Source: Collimonas sp. PA-H2
Lineage (GTDB): Bacteria > Pseudomonadota > Gammaproteobacteria > Burkholderiales > Burkholderiaceae_D
Direction: 5' to 3'
Assembly: GCF_002564105.1 (NCBI RefSeq)
Contig: NZ_PDBX01000001.1
Coordinates: 3,782,001 to 3,846,000 of the forward strand
DNA: 64,000 nucleotides
Below the pieces are notes generated by a model. That model made no database searches. It had not been told where the DNA came from and saw nothing but the letters and a program-made list of their open reading frames with translations. The position numbers were made by a program, and so were the translations under genes. Shown piece by piece: positions 15,034-20,472 of the stretch. Every line of letters begins with the position of its first letter. Position 1 is the first letter of the stretch.

Positions 15034-15135
15034 GGTGCTTGGCTGTCAGGCATGAAAGCCTTATCGTAAAACGATGCTCCCCATCGCTGCTGCCGAAATT
15101 GACTTAAAAAGCGGCTTAAAAAAGCGGTTTGATAT

Positions 15136-15522
15136 TTAGCTTATGCATGTGAAATTCAGTTCAACCCCGTTGCCGGCCGGATCGCGCAGGAAGATCTGTT
15201 TTTGCTGCAAGGACGGGACAAACGCCACTTGATAAGGCAGCTGGCGCGCCAGCAAAAGCGCTTCCATTCCCTCAGGATCGACGCAGCTGAAGGCGACGTG
15301 ATCGAAGCTGGTGGCGATACCGGTATGCCTGACATCGCCGGTCCGCGCTTCGCTCAGATGCAGCACGGCTTGCCCGCCAGCATATAGCCAGTAACCGAAA
15401 CTGTCGAAAGCGGGCCGCTCGCCGGCTTCCAGGCCGATCACTTCGCAATAAAATTCCTTCAACTGCAGCAATAGTGCTCGCGGCGCGCGCAGGTTGTAAT
15501 GATTGAGGGCGATGGCTGGCAT
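15136..15522 (-). CDS. VOC family protein
   Basis: A 128-residue glyoxalase-fold protein starting MPAIALNHYNLRAP, with FYCEVIGLEAGERP, TSFDHVAFSCVD and a C-terminal FLRDPAGNGVELNF. Metal-ligand-type residues are His8, the His of DHVAF and the Glu of GVELNF. The chosen Met matches the family start; a longer frame begins 60 nt upstream. It stands alone. Substrate unknown. Confidence 0.85.
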   Translation of the reverse strand: MPAIALNHYNLRAPRALLLQLKEFYCEVIGLEAGERPAFDSFGYWLYAGGQAVLHLSEARTGDVRHTGIATSFDHVAFSCVDPEGMEALLLARQLPYQVAFVPSLQQKQIFLRDPAGNGVELNFTCIS

Positions 15523-15751
15523 AAATGGCTCGTGGCGTGACGGCTGCGGGACTATGAGTGTAATCGATGCGCGTCGATACAATGAGTGGTTGCTGGCGTC
15601 TATGTCACGCTAGCCACTGTGTTGCTGGGGCGTGGTACGATTTTCCAATTCCAGGTTCGACATGAAACTGGCAAATCCGCGGCGCCGTCAGGATGCTGCT
15701 CGCGGTAACGGTACAATCCCAATCCCACTTGCTCTAGGTATCGGCGCTCCC

Positions 15752-16162
15752 ATGCTTGCCATCAAACCCTATCTGCGCGCGTTGACAATCAACCCGACAA
15801 GAGAAATCGATTTTGATGCCTATCCGTTCAGCGTTCCGGCAGTCCGTGAGCTGGAACAGATCGCATTTCATCCGGATGTAACTTTTCTGGTCGGGGTAAA
15901 CGGTGCCGGCAAATCGACCTTGCTGGAAGCAATGGCGATCGCCTGGGGATTCAACGCGGAAGGAGGCAATCAAAACAATGGTTTTTCGACGGTGAACGCA
16001 CATTCTGATCTGCATACCTATTTGCGCACCGTTAAAAGCTACAAACGTCCCAAGGCAGGTTATTTCTTGCGAGCGGAAAGTTTTTTTAATGTCGCCACCA
16101 ATATCGAAAAACTAGATGCCGCATCCGGCCTCGGTAATTTGATTGGTCCTAGGGCCTGTTAA
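15752..16162 (+). pseudogene. 5' half of a disrupted AAA-type ATPase (COG3910-like)
   Basis: The open frame starts MLAIKPYLRALTINPTREIDFDAYPF and has a Walker A motif GVNGAGKSTLLEA near residue 50. The native coding sequence stops at 16149; the next bases are the TA target and the palindromic element, whose first codons add Arg-Ala-Cys and a stop. Joined to the 3' half after removing the insert, one TA being kept, it gives a 251-codon frame with no shift, encoding GPSYGDRLLHQQSHGEAF across the join, a typical block of this ATPase family. The function of the intact protein is not established. Confidence 0.88.
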
Positions 16163-16310
16163 CATTTAATTTGGGAATGCGAACGCGCGGCAGGCGTTGC
16201 GTGCCTAGGCGCGGCGACGCGACGTAGCGGTGCTACGGCAAGAAGCCACGCGCCTTGCCAGCACACTTTTTGGCTTGAACGCATCTCCCGAATTAATTGT
16301 TAACAGGCCC
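16152..16310 (-). repeat. Left flanking palindromic element, short (159-bp) form
   Basis: Bounded by TA on both sides. Its reverse complement is identical to the right-hand copy except that 103 bp corresponding to 18770-18872 are absent; the junction falls between two GGCTT direct repeats, so it looks like a deletion derivative. No coding capacity. Confidence 0.9.
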
Positions 16311-16619
16311 TAGTGCAAGGATCAAGTTCCTATGAAACTTCGGCGGCTGTCGTGCAGGTTGATTTATTCAATGTATTTTCCAGTTGTCCACTCTCACTGT
16401 TGACAGGTTGAGATGCATGTCCAATGCATGCTACCCTCGCTCACCGTCGACGATTTCAACGCAGTCACTTGAGACTTCAACGGTATCCGCAGATCGATAA
16501 CGGCTCTGGAAACACTGGTCGCCGCTCTGCGGTTTTGTTGTTTCAGCTGCACATCAATTTTTGGTCTTTTTGGCGCACCCTCGTTGCTATTCCCACTCAC
16601 AACTGAAAAAGGAATTCAC

Positions 16620-17069
16620 ATGACCAGCCCACTTACACTGATGATGCCCGTCATCCCGGGAACCAGCCTGGTGACGATTGCCGCCGCCCTGGAAGGCAAT
16701 AGTAAAAAAATCGACGCTGCCCTCAACGGCATCGGTACCGTCCACTTTGCCCGCTTTCTGCTGCTGGATCGCTCTCAAGCCAATCTGCAGCCCACCAGTG
16801 CGCCCTCCAACTCCTTGCTGATCGGCGTCGTCACCGAGTACGACGGCAATTTCAATGCCTATATCAGCGATTTCGTCGCCCAACTGGGTCCCGTGTTCGA
16901 TCAACTGCTGTCATTTGTCGTCGGCGGCGCCGCGCTGATCCCGGTCGCCAATAATGTCGCCGCATTCCAGGCTTTCATTACCGTCAACGATGCTTCGCAA
17001 CACGCGCCAAATGTCTCGCTGTATTCCGCTTATCCGCAAACCGTGCAACAGATCCTCGCCGCCTTCTGA
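16620..17069 (+). CDS. Small protein of unknown function paired with the DyP peroxidase
   Basis: 149 residues with AAGGAA seven nt before the ATG. It contains VHFARFLLLD and LLIGVVTEYDGNFNAYISDFVAQLGPVFDQLL, a pattern like ferredoxin-fold proteins sometimes found next to or fused to DyP-type peroxidases, and ends SLYSAYPQTVQQILAAF. No signal peptide is convincing. It lies 99 nt upstream of the DyP gene inside the composite element, which suggests a joint function such as an accessory subunit. I do not recognise an established family name. Confidence 0.75.
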   Translation: MTSPLTLMMPVIPGTSLVTIAAALEGNSKKIDAALNGIGTVHFARFLLLDRSQANLQPTSAPSNSLLIGVVTEYDGNFNAYISDFVAQLGPVFDQLLSFVVGGAALIPVANNVAAFQAFITVNDASQHAPNVSLYSAYPQTVQQILAAF

Positions 17070-17168
17070 TTTTTGCCATTTCCATACTGCTCGCATGAGA
17101 GATGAGATCCGGCCTGGCGGCCGTTCTCATGCGTCACCCAACCTGACTTCAACGCCGGGAGCGATAGC

Positions 17169-18593
17169 ATGGCCGATCCTGTAATCGATTACGACGACGT
17201 ACAAGGCACCATCCTGCGCGGCTATCGCGTCGATCTGGCGCGCCATTTCATCCTGTCCATCACGAATCCGCAGGCCGCAGGGAAATTGATAGGCGCGCTG
17301 GTGGACGGCAGCGGCGGCCTGCCAAAAATAACCACGGCCAGACACATCCAGCCCAAGCCGCCGTGCTTTCTCAACATCAGCTTCACCTGCCCAGGTCTAG
17401 CCAAACTCGGCCTCAACGCCGAGCAACTCGCCACATTTGATGGGTCCTTCCAGCTTGGTGCGACCAGTTCGGTCAGCGCACAGGCAGTCGGCGACGTCGG
17501 CCCCAGTGCGCCGCAAAATTGGATAAGCGGATTGCAGGACGGCGCCAAGGTGCACATACTGTTGAGCTTGTGGGTGACGGAATCCGCGTCGGTATTGGAA
17601 TCGGTATCAGCCAAGTTGCGCGCCACATTTAAAGGCTGCATGGCTGAGCTGTACGCGCAGGATGCGCAGGCCCTACCAGACAACAAAGTCCATTTCGGCT
17701 ATCGCGACAGCATTGCCCAGCCGACCGTGATTGGCGCCCCGACGACCAAGCGCGAGGCGCCAGACGATCAGCCGGCGGTCAAGACCGGAGAATTTCTGCT
17801 TGGCTACCAGAACGAACTCGGAGGCGTCTACAAGGTATCGCCGCCCGAGTTGTCAATCAACAGCAGCTATGCGGCGTTTCGCATCCTGGAGCAGGACGTC
17901 GCCGGGTTCGATGTCATGCTCGCCGAGCATGCCGAGGAAACCGGACTTGACACGGAAATGCTGGCTGCCAAAATATGCGGGCGCTGGCGCAACGGCAACC
18001 CTCTGGAGCTGACGCCAGACGCGCCGGGCGAACTCCTGCCGCCATCGAAATTGAACAATTTCAACTACGTCACCGGTGTAGCACCGAGCGATGACACCCT
18101 GGGCCTGATTTGCCCGATAGGTTCGCATATCCGCCGCAACAACCCGCGTAACGGCGCAGTGAACGGAACCGACAGCACCCACCATCGGATTGTACGGCGC
18201 GCCATGCCCTACGGGCCGTCTTACGATCCACTGCAACCCGTCGACGCGCAGCGCGGCCTGACCGGCTACTTTATCAACGCCAGCATCCACAACCAGTTCG
18301 AATTTCTCACCAGCGAATGGAATCTGACACACCTGTTCGTGAAAGCGGCCACCGGGCCGGGCGGCTCAAATGACGGCAACGCGGTCAATAACATCAGCGG
18401 CGAGGACGTGTTCCTGGGCGTAAATGATCCGGCGAACAGTTCGTTCACCCTGGCCGAGGTAGGCCCGCGCGGTTCCAACAACAAGTTGATGAAAGACTTT
18501 CCCCGCACGATTACCACGCGCGGCGGCGTCTACTGCTTCTTCCCCAGCATCACCGGCCTGCGTTATTTGGCGCAGTTGCCTTCCACAAGGTAG
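17169..18593 (+). CDS. DyP-type peroxidase
   Basis: A heme peroxidase of 474 residues, the size of the larger DyP classes. The distal GxxDG motif appears as GYRDSIAQP near residue 178: the catalytic Asp is kept but the last Gly is Ser. The region IGSHIRRNNPRN near residue 319 holds the proximal heme His and is followed by HRIVRRAMPYGP. The C-terminal GGVYCFFPSITGLRYLA fits the family. There is no Tat or Sec signal, so it is cytoplasmic or packaged by a partner. It is the main cargo of the composite insert. Confidence 0.92.
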   Translation: MADPVIDYDDVQGTILRGYRVDLARHFILSITNPQAAGKLIGALVDGSGGLPKITTARHIQPKPPCFLNISFTCPGLAKLGLNAEQLATFDGSFQLGATSSVSAQAVGDVGPSAPQNWISGLQDGAKVHILLSLWVTESASVLESVSAKLRATFKGCMAELYAQDAQALPDNKVHFGYRDSIAQPTVIGAPTTKREAPDDQPAVKTGEFLLGYQNELGGVYKVSPPELSINSSYAAFRILEQDVAGFDVMLAEHAEETGLDTEMLAAKICGRWRNGNPLELTPDAPGELLPPSKLNNFNYVTGVAPSDDTLGLICPIGSHIRRNNPRNGAVNGTDSTHHRIVRRAMPYGPSYDPLQPVDAQRGLTGYFINASIHNQFEFLTSEWNLTHLFVKAATGPGGSNDGNAVNNISGEDVFLGVNDPANSSFTLAEVGPRGSNNKLMKDFPRTITTRGGVYCFFPSITGLRYLAQLPSTR

Positions 18594-18701
18594 GCATGTG
18601 GGCGATGGTTTGTGTTTTCTGCCAACAAAGGCGTCGATAAGGGGAGAGATGTAAATAGATAATAAAAGACGGTATAAAACAAAAAAACCGCATCAGCACT
18701 A

Positions 18702-18963
18702 GGGCCTGTTAACAATTAATTCGGGAGATGCGTTCAAGCCAAAAAGTGTGCTGGCAAGGCGCGTGGCTTGCTGGGACTGAAGCCCCAGCAAGCCATGCAA
18801 CGCGGCCAGCGCACTTTTTGGCTTGAACCCTCCGGGAACGGCTGCAGGCATCGCATGCCGTTGTTGCGGCTTCTTGCCGTAGCACCGCTACGTCGCGTCG
18901 CCGCGCCTAGGCACGCAACGCCTGCCGCGCGTTCGCATTCCCAAATTAAATGTTAACAGGCCC
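18702..18963 (+). repeat. Right flanking palindromic element, long (262-bp) form
   Basis: Bounded by TA on both sides. Within it 18732-18828 forms a near-perfect long hairpin: a 17-nt arm at 18732-18748 is exactly complementary to 18812-18828, GCTGGC pairs with GCCAGC, and the arm at 18764-18775 pairs with 18784-18795. It is inverted relative to the left copy and identical to it apart from the 103 bp the left copy lacks. Confidence 0.9.
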
Positions 18964-19321
18964 TAGTTACGGCGACAGATTATTACATCAGCAATCGCAC
19001 GGTGAGGCCTTCCTGGCGCTGCTGCAAAACAAATTCAAAGCAGACGGCTGTTACATGCTGGATGAACCAGAGGCGGCGTTATCGCCGAACCGGCAACTGG
19101 CTGCGCTGGCCATGATTCACCGTTTGGTGCAGCGCAATTGCCAATTTGTGATCGCCACCCATTCGCCGATTTTGCTGGCATATCCGCGTGCCAGAATTTA
19201 TCTTTTGAGTAATAGCGGATTAACGGAAACCTGTTATGAAGACACCGAGCAGTACACAACAACCCGCGATTTCCTGAATAATCCTGCAGGCGGGATGGCG
19301 CGGCTCTTTGCCGAGCAATAG
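18964..19321 (+). pseudogene. 3' half of the disrupted AAA-type ATPase
   Basis: Encodes SYGDRLLHQQSHGEAFLALL, then a Walker B motif CYMLDEPEAALSP with a D-loop-like tail, and FVIATHSPILLAYP containing the switch His. The frame is in register with the 5' half once the insert and one TA are removed. It has no native start; an ATG inside the end of the repeat could open the frame but would give a protein without Walker A, so it is not expected to be an active ATPase. Confidence 0.88.
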
Positions 19322-19479
19322 CCGCCGCTCGCTGCTGGATTCGTGATGGATTCATGCATCTGACAAGTAAAGGCATGAGATTGTTGTTTTTGAAACTAGT
19401 CATAGAGCTTTAGCCGGTATCTATAGCTTTACTGCCTAATCGCTTCGGGAAGTAAGCCGGCGGCGCTTACAATGGCTGG

Positions 19480-20472
19480 ATGAATATTTCACCACCCGCA
19501 TCATTCACTACCCTTACCCCCGACACCGTGCTGGACGCGCTCGACAGCATCGGCCTGCATGGCGATGGTCGCCTGCTGGCTCTCAATAGCTATGAAAACC
19601 GCGTGTACCAGATTGGCATGGAAGAGGGGCCGCCGCTAGTGGCCAAGTTCTACCGCCCGCACCGCTGGAGCGATGCCGCCATCCTGGAAGAACATGGTTT
19701 CGTGCAGGAACTGGTAGAGCGCGAAATCCCGGTGGTTGCGGCCTGGGCCGGTGCTGACGGCAGCACCTTGCATCAATTCGACGGTTTCCGCTTCGCGGTA
19801 TTTCCGCGCCATGGCGGCCGCGCGCCGGAACTGGAGGACGACGCCACGCTGGAATGGCTGGGCCGTTTCATGGGGCGCATCCATGCCGTCGGAGGCTTAC
19901 GTAACTACCAGCATCGGCCGTCCCTGGATATCGCCAGCTTCGGCGAAGAACCGAGTGCCTTCCTGCTGGCCAACAACTTTGTTCCGGCGGATTTGCTGGA
20001 GGCCTATCGCAGCACCGTGACTCAGGCGCTGGAGGGTGTGCGGCGTTGTTTCGAGCGCGCCGGCACGGTCGGCTCGCTGCGCCTGCATGGCGATTGCCAT
20101 GGCAGCAATGTGCTGTGGACCGATGCCGGACCGCACTTCGTCGATTTTGACGACAGCCGCATGGGGCCGGCAGTACAGGACCTGTGGATGTTGCTGTCCG
20201 GCGAGCGCAGGGATATGGTGCGGCAGATGGGTTCCTTGCTGGCCGGGTATGAGGATTTTTGCGATTTCGATACTCGTGAGCTGTATCTGATCGAGGCATT
20301 GCGCACCTTGCGCCTGATCCACTACGCGGCTTGGATTGCCCGGCGCTGGGACGACCCGGCCTTCGCCGTGGCCTTCCCATGGTTCAATACCCAGCGCTAC
20401 TGGCAGGATAGGGTGCTGGAACTGCGCGAACAGATCGCGCTGATGGACGAACCACCGTTGTGGCAAAACTGA
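19480..20472 (+). CDS. srkA: Stress-response Ser/Thr protein kinase, SrkA/YihE (RdoA) family
   Basis: The 330-residue aminoglycoside-phosphotransferase-like kinase has NSYENRVYQIG and LVAKFYRPHRW at the ATP site, the catalytic loop LRLHGDCHGSNVLW, and the metal-binding HFVDFDDSRMGP. SrkA counteracts MazF-linked and Cpx-linked death pathways in E. coli. Length matches the family. It starts about 150 nt after the disrupted ATPase gene and is convergent with the SMR transporter gene. Confidence 0.93.
   Translation: MNISPPASFTTLTPDTVLDALDSIGLHGDGRLLALNSYENRVYQIGMEEGPPLVAKFYRPHRWSDAAILEEHGFVQELVEREIPVVAAWAGADGSTLHQFDGFRFAVFPRHGGRAPELEDDATLEWLGRFMGRIHAVGGLRNYQHRPSLDIASFGEEPSAFLLANNFVPADLLEAYRSTVTQALEGVRRCFERAGTVGSLRLHGDCHGSNVLWTDAGPHFVDFDDSRMGPAVQDLWMLLSGERRDMVRQMGSLLAGYEDFCDFDTRELYLIEALRTLRLIHYAAWIARRWDDPAFAVAFPWFNTQRYWQDRVLELREQIALMDEPPLWQN

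Follow-up and report, generated by a model that had tools for sequence, protein, structure and literature searches.

A block of 2,812 bp interrupts an AAA-type ATPase gene in the genome of the soil bacterium Collimonas sp. PA-H2 (G000). We regard this block, with a probability of about 0.85, as a composite transposon without a transposase gene, in which two palindromic miniature inverted-repeat transposable elements (MITEs) that target TA move an operon as one unit. It lies in a window of 64,000 nucleotides (G000:C1:3782001-3846000) on the larger contig of the genome, and all unprefixed coordinates below are positions in this window. Without the flanking TA the block spans 16152-18963. A precise insertion at one CTAG, an allele without the insert, a further placement of the unit at an unrelated site, again between two TA, and a cargo similarity well above that of a core gene are all demonstrated; how the DNA passed from species to species is inferred.

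The proposed history is as follows. In some Collimonas, two copies of a palindromic TA-targeting MITE would have come to flank a two-gene operon coding for a 149-aa protein and a DyP-type peroxidase, so that the donor would be an operon between two separate MITE insertions. A DDE transposase supplied in trans may then have used both outer ends, which we call end 1, as the ends of a single 2.8-kb unit. This unit would have inserted at a CTAG of the ATPase gene, duplicating the TA and breaking the gene. We infer an enzyme of the DDE type, acting in trans, because of the TA duplication and the established biology of MITEs.

The 5′ part of the ATPase gene lies on the plus strand at 15662..16149. 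It starts with ATG at 15662, its frame is also open from a GTG at 15632, and it runs into the insert to a stop at 16162. The left target duplication, a TA within the target CTAG, occupies 16150..16151 and is followed by the left MITE-like element (16152..16310, plus strand, 159 bp, with a 103-bp internal deletion) and by the TA of its inner junction (16311..16312). Next come the cargo segment (16313..18699, plus strand, of which the 2,379 bp at 16317-18695 served as query), the TA of the other inner junction (18700..18701) and the right MITE-like element (18702..18963, minus strand, 262 bp), which is of full length and inverted with respect to the left one. The right target duplication (TA, 18964..18965) and the 3′ part of the ATPase gene (18966..19321, plus strand) close the arrangement. 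Apart from 103 internal bases that the left element lacks, the two elements are identical. An outer pair of inverted repeats, 16149-16247 and 18868-18966, is 100% complementary over 99 nt, the arms differing at 0 of 99 positions, and a second pair, 16243-16316 and 18696-18769, is 100% complementary over 74 nt. We found no transposase gene within the unit in the list of open reading frames (ORFs) or with profiles: the flanking elements contain no long ORF, and the cargo consists of a hypothetical protein and the peroxidase. A preliminary description of this DNA, made from its letters alone, had reported a transposase-free insert of 2812 bp with inverted repeats, TA on both sides and an ATPase frame that closes when the insert is removed, and our analysis bears out each of these points.

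Profiles of AAA-type ATPases match both halves of the gene, the 5′ half with their N-terminal and the 3′ half with their C-terminal part (both halves appear in the ORF list, the 5′ one with a match to Pfam AAA_23). The frame closes across the insert: the 5′ ORF ends in ...GNLIGP and the 3′ part begins with SYGDRLL.... The Collimonas genome G008 has this gene intact, coding for 291 aa and passing through GNLIGPSYGD; it reads GNLIGPSYGDRLL. Its DNA aligns over the joined flanks and carries one CTAG at the insertion point. G008 is the sole genome among 15 Collimonas, besides G000, with a close orthologue of the gene (93%); the remaining ones have relatives at 74-78% DNA identity or short matches only. 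Five of the distant relatives (L060, L061, L062, L064 and L073, ~75% protein identity) are unbroken at the equivalent residue. Another relative, L063, aligns in two overlapping pieces, and L074, a second locus of G000, is decayed. The comparison across 16149/18966 that the preliminary description had proposed thus gave an uninterrupted gene in G008 and in these five relatives. Neither an ATPase gene that naturally contains the inserted region nor DyP genes lying at the same place without the repeats, either of which would have spoken against an insertion, were seen: the cargo lies at an ATPase match in 0 of the 14 other Collimonas genomes. The ATPase gene also contains an in-frame CAATCC hexanucleotide repeat of two units at 15714-15725, to which G008 adds five more units (IPIPIP...).

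How old is the insertion? In bins of 400 bases, the identity between G000 and G008 is 97-99.8% for some 1.6 kb on the two sides of the site (~15.1-16.15 and 18.97-19.5 kb), and the surrounding bins fall to 82-96%, mostly 91-94%. On these identities the ATPase region (~15100-16149 and 18966-19500) was likely exchanged recently between species. The shared ATPase allele must then be young and the insertion in G000 younger still, unless G008 has lost the unit. That exception would make the empty allele secondary, produced by precise excision, and it could appeal to the presence of the cargo elsewhere in G008 and to the recently exchanged ATPase block common to both genomes. Precise excision with loss of one TA is, however, uncommon for DDE elements, and the five more distant relatives are likewise uninterrupted at the site. 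There is a single close orthologue, so these data do not test a loss in G008 strongly, but we hold it to be very unlikely. As we read these sequences, the recency of the insertion rests on the intact flanking frame together with the 97-99.8% identical empty allele, and not on the identity of the two element copies alone.

The cargo was detected in five of the 15 Collimonas genomes, G000 included: G007 (98%), G008 (98%), G003 (84%) and G012 (71%). Genome G007, which we take as C. humicola RLT1W51, has at locus L048 the 2,379-bp cargo between the same two elements, inverted, with TA on both sides (left junction AAAAC-TA-GGGCC, right junction GGCTC-TA-GATAAG), and its flanks have nothing in common with the locus in the window. 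This unit (L048 7355-10525) has on one side a gene whose domains are of the TPR and transcription-regulator types. On the other side, about 0.55 kb away, is a phage integrase gene, followed by terminase and portal genes, a possible vehicle. Its left element keeps positions 1 to ~145 and then passes directly into the cargo, the inner end being lost, and the right junction is whole. In G000 the left element has kept both ends and lost its middle; most simply, both forms would go back to a unit in which neither copy was shortened. Within the C. humicola unit, 8 of the 99 outer-arm positions differ. Between the two genomes the identity is 95% for the right element and 98% for the cargo, so change is faster in the elements than in the cargo they enclose.

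The structural features of a MITE-bounded composite are found here: two MITE copies bound the block, the target is duplicated at the outer ends, and the unit stands at a second site (L048, there with its left inner end lost). The empty site in G008 and the same arrangement elsewhere in C. humicola exclude a chance arrangement, and they bear out the earlier proposal that two palindromic non-autonomous elements bound the genes and were inserted with them as a unit. One could still suppose an ordinary chromosomal operon between two independent MITE insertions that never moved jointly, and the operon does stand in G003 and G012 with no element ends beside it. Such chance neighborhood is contradicted by the empty allele, from which the operon is missing, and by the recurrence of the MITE-operon junctions at unrelated sites, where G008 has tips of both and C. 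humicola an intact right and a decayed left one; we find this supposition hardly credible.

Just inside the repeat the element's two ends differ in sequence, GGGA-GTGCGA against GGGA-GATGCG in most copies; in the window they read GGGAATGCGA. Each of the two element copies contributes one outer end of the block, and in both cases it is end 1. One MITE cannot give two such flanks, so either the outer ends of the two copies were the ends of the moving unit, or homologous recombination must have been helped by an extra conversion step. Under homologous recombination, a solo MITE would already have lain in the ATPase gene, and an incoming MITE-operon-MITE fragment would have recombined into it. MITE copies are indeed dispersed in the genome, and the 97-99.8% identity around the ATPase points to recombination of this region between species. 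But starting from a solo MITE, one flank would carry end 1 and the other would carry end 2, whereas here end 1 is on both over 99 bp, and G008 has a bare CTAG with no solo MITE. We consider recombination unlikely and transposition of the whole composite unit the better account.

The cargo of G008 occupies a third site. Its left end (CTAGGGCCTGTTA) and right end (CTAGGGCC) fall where the inner element ends of the window begin, and unrelated sequence follows. All that it keeps of the two elements is their inner tips, of 13 and 8 nt, with the same junctions as in the window, including the inner TA of the left element. By analogy with the ISApl1-mcr-1 composite, as it is outlined in the part of PMC5821093 that we used, we read this as a composite that may have lost its flanking elements. 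The three species look like stages of one history: the whole unit, the unit with one decayed inner end, and the cargo with tips only. Beside the G008 cargo (L095 12422-14851) are ORFs with ADP-ribosyltransferase-like and C58 peptidase-like domains, and a DDE_3 (IS630-type) ORF with no element-like ends nearby lies about 6 kb from it (L095 2333-3109).

If the unit moves, has the cargo accumulated less genetic distinction than the chromosome around it? As yardstick we used a neighboring core gene at 19480-20472, which we take to be srkA from its type of sequence; the codon comparison rests on L220, L221 and L223, with L222 and L224 set aside. Between G000 and G007 or G008 there are 19 or 14 synonymous changes in the 474 codons of the DyP gene and 81 or 77 in the 330 codons of srkA, a six- to eightfold lower divergence for DyP. 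At the DNA level, srkA is 89% identical to that of G000 in G007 and 91% in G008, and the cargo is 98% identical in both. In G003 the two are equally divergent (cargo 84%, srkA 85%). The low synonymous divergence of DyP against srkA argues that the cargo has crossed species, and on these counts we conclude that it moved between Collimonas species; the yardstick is one small core gene, and for G008 the wider surroundings agree with it. In a plasmid collection the whole unit had no long match; the only ones, about 60 bp in length and 83% identical, came from six Sulfitobacter plasmids, and five of these short matches fall under a gene with a cytochrome P450 annotation. The element alone had no match in the plasmid collection, nor did the whole unit in a phage collection.

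The first cargo gene (16620..17069, plus strand; ORF list, profile searches and homologues) encodes a conserved hypothetical protein of 149 aa with no Pfam or NCBIfam match. It has 449 homologues at E <= 0.001, and among the 120 listed, those that carry a description are called hypothetical or uncharacterised only. The second gene (17169..18593, plus strand) encodes a 474-aa DyP-type peroxidase that scores above the cut-off of Pfam DyP_N and below that of NCBIfam Dyp_perox_fam (TIGR01413), and it matches solved DyP enzymes by sequence. The 149-aa gene is directly upstream of DyP in all five distinct loci compared, from Collimonas to an acidimicrobial metagenome-assembled genome (L049 is the same place as L057 and was counted once), so the cargo of the unit is a conserved pair of genes in complete form.

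The element itself is widespread. It has matches in 14 of the 15 Collimonas genomes. Across the bacterial family, 47 of 195 genomes, belonging to 13 of 44 genera, have a match at E <= 1e-8; among the matches listed, ten of these 13 genera have a near full-length one (mostly ~268-272 bp) and three a partial match only. From 70 loci we retained 62 full-length copies, leaving out eight partial ones, and removal of one duplicate gave 61 distinct Collimonas copies, some of which appear orthologous between genomes. They measure 234-297 bp with the flanking CTAG bases counted, which falls within the 50-500 bp of a MITE, and they have no transposase gene and many dispersed copies. The ends match within copies over ~27 bp as terminal inverted repeats, and as to target duplication an empty site is known for the composite only; TA stands at both extrapolated ends in 41 of the 61 copies, and a YTAR target in 36. 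Solo tips (YTA-GGGCCTGTTAACA, then unrelated sequence) occur for example at L171, L173, L174 and L175, and a tip-to-tip palindrome at L176; these are probably deletion scars of the element. In Rfam, no family reached its gathering score on the element, and two microRNA families far below theirs were taken as chance hits on a long hairpin. Our search of the open literature, with subscription papers and ISfinder outside it, gave no account of palindromic TA-target MITEs tied to Collimonas or Janthinobacterium, and the element family appears new.

The arms of the element change together. The right copy of the window folds with z = -17.6, and in a consensus fold of the 61 aligned copies (an end stem and two arms) 98.9% of cells are paired. 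Both sides have changed in 43 of 100 pairs, against an average of 16.1 in shuffles, none of 500 reaching 43, and 8-14 in slid controls; the fold was derived from the same alignment, which favors it over the slid controls, and the copies are related, which makes the counted double changes non-independent events. A 12-nt end tract occurs in 39 distinct forms among the 62 copies, and 47 of them have the same tract at either end (2,000 shuffles: mean 3.2, maximum 9). Double changes of transversion type make up 118 of 296. G-U cells fall mostly within five pairs (29-274, 50-143, 53-140, 80-84 and 102-129; 162 of 201), so G-U intermediates are few elsewhere. The tips (GGGCCTGT) hardly vary among copies, and neither does a more internal block. 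Copying from arm to arm in DNA is known as template switching (PMC8794818 and PMC8604942), and this pattern of double changes seems to suit it better than slow selection on an RNA. Because the arms of the family change together, the identity of the two copies in the window is no proof of recency; of the preliminary argument for a recent event the recency stands, on the evidence given above, and the proof from identity falls. Such co-change over dozens of copies makes the family well suited to testing how the arms of inverted repeats stay matched in nature. A wider idea, which we regard as unlikely, is that the element is mobilised through its folded hairpin and not through a fixed end sequence, and that paired copies serve as transposase-free carriers in several genera of one family, with an enzyme not yet recognised.

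The preliminary description had also suggested a search of related genomes for the element copies. This search yielded the same cargo at another site, in C. humicola, and the solo tips, but neither a cognate transposase nor other cargos. With an exact 16-mer of the ends, no element with matching ends appeared in the 15 genomes. For the IS427- and IS630/Tc1-type enzymes that the preliminary description had named as fitting a TA target, the profiles IS5_3 and DDE_3 were used in six genomes. The IS5_3 profile had matches in six of six genomes, 20 of them in G000, none above the cut-off. Many separate ORFs of ~140-190 codons in G000 and other Collimonas match only the N-terminal part of this profile (for example G000:C1:4599493-4599777). 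Unpaired sites with the end pattern were considered as ends of insertion sequences and rejected, for those that we read are solo tips, small palindromes and partial copies, and several in G010, situated at contig ends, are assembly breaks at repeats. The negatives for a cognate transposase cover part of the genomes and families, PF01609-type transposases lying outside the search.

Several observations weigh against a composite unit moved by a transposase in trans. No autonomous element with matching ends was found: end pairs at transposon-length spacing are absent from G000 apart from the unit itself (up to three mismatches in 16), the exact 12-mer gave no paired ends in five genomes, no tip pair surrounds the IS5_3-like genes in the 30 loci scanned of 61 rows, and DDE_3 genes occur in 0 of six genomes, a set without G008. 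Twenty of the 61 copies have no TA at one or both extrapolated ends. The window site has only one close orthologue for the comparison with an empty allele, and no empty counterpart turned up for the site in C. humicola. In G008 the outer ends of the cargo are gone, and arrival there as a unit is thus not demonstrated by that locus. Nonsynonymous changes are not low in DyP (11 for G007 and 16 for G008) relative to srkA (33 and 12), so its shortage of changes is confined to silent ones. Other cargos are undocumented too: by eye, among the element matches listed, no short composite other than the G000/G007 unit was noticed in pairs within 20 kb, where the weakest matches were left out and draft assemblies break at repeats. 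G014 has two pairs with wider spacings, of ~15 and ~18 kb (L178 and L179), which were scanned for ends only.

How does the Collimonas unit compare with known systems? Correia/NEMIS and ERIC are palindromic elements inserted at TA, and we liken the Collimonas element to them by description only; to our knowledge, they are not known as paired carriers of genes. Composites bounded by MITEs are established, as the consulted parts of PMC13367494 and PMC10969869 indicate, and the preliminary statement that no named element has this combination was overstated, because such carriers are a named kind. The nearest relatives in structure are the TIME-COMP elements, bounded by Tn3-derived MITEs (IMU, IS101, MITESen1, TIME244). 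According to the same sections of PMC13367494, these also consist of two non-autonomous MITEs around passenger genes, with outer target duplications and a transposase in trans, but they have duplications of 5-6 bp and reside mostly on plasmids, in contrast to the TA, the chromosomal position and the peroxidase operon of our unit. The latter is not a TIME-COMP proper: in place of Tn3-family ends and a 5-6 bp duplication it has TA and ends that start GGGCCTGTT, the Tn3 ends being set apart without alignment. The MITE-flanked class 1 integrons of Acinetobacter, as far as the excerpt of PMC10969869 goes, resemble it as gene blocks that have an identical MITE on either side and occur in several species, and differ in that the cargo is an integron and the MITE is another one (compared without alignment). 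The ISApl1-mcr-1 composite Tn6330 resembles what G008 appears to show, in that loss of the flanking elements leaves cargo and remnants, although its flanking elements encode transposase (PMC5821093, in part). MITEAba12 and other MITEs derived from insertion sequences are likewise short, without a transposase gene, with terminal inverted repeats, target duplications and many copies; MITEAba12 has its ends in common with a resident insertion sequence and makes duplications of 9 bp (PMC6382973), whereas we found no such partner for the Collimonas element. Such carriers are usually reported on plasmids or with drug resistance, and the Collimonas unit stands outside that setting: a pair of mobile elements without genes carries an ordinary metabolic operon on the chromosomes of environmental bacteria, and this cargo is common to several species. 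On the literature search given above, the element family, the TA target for a composite of this kind, the chromosomal setting and the metabolic cargo appear to be new.

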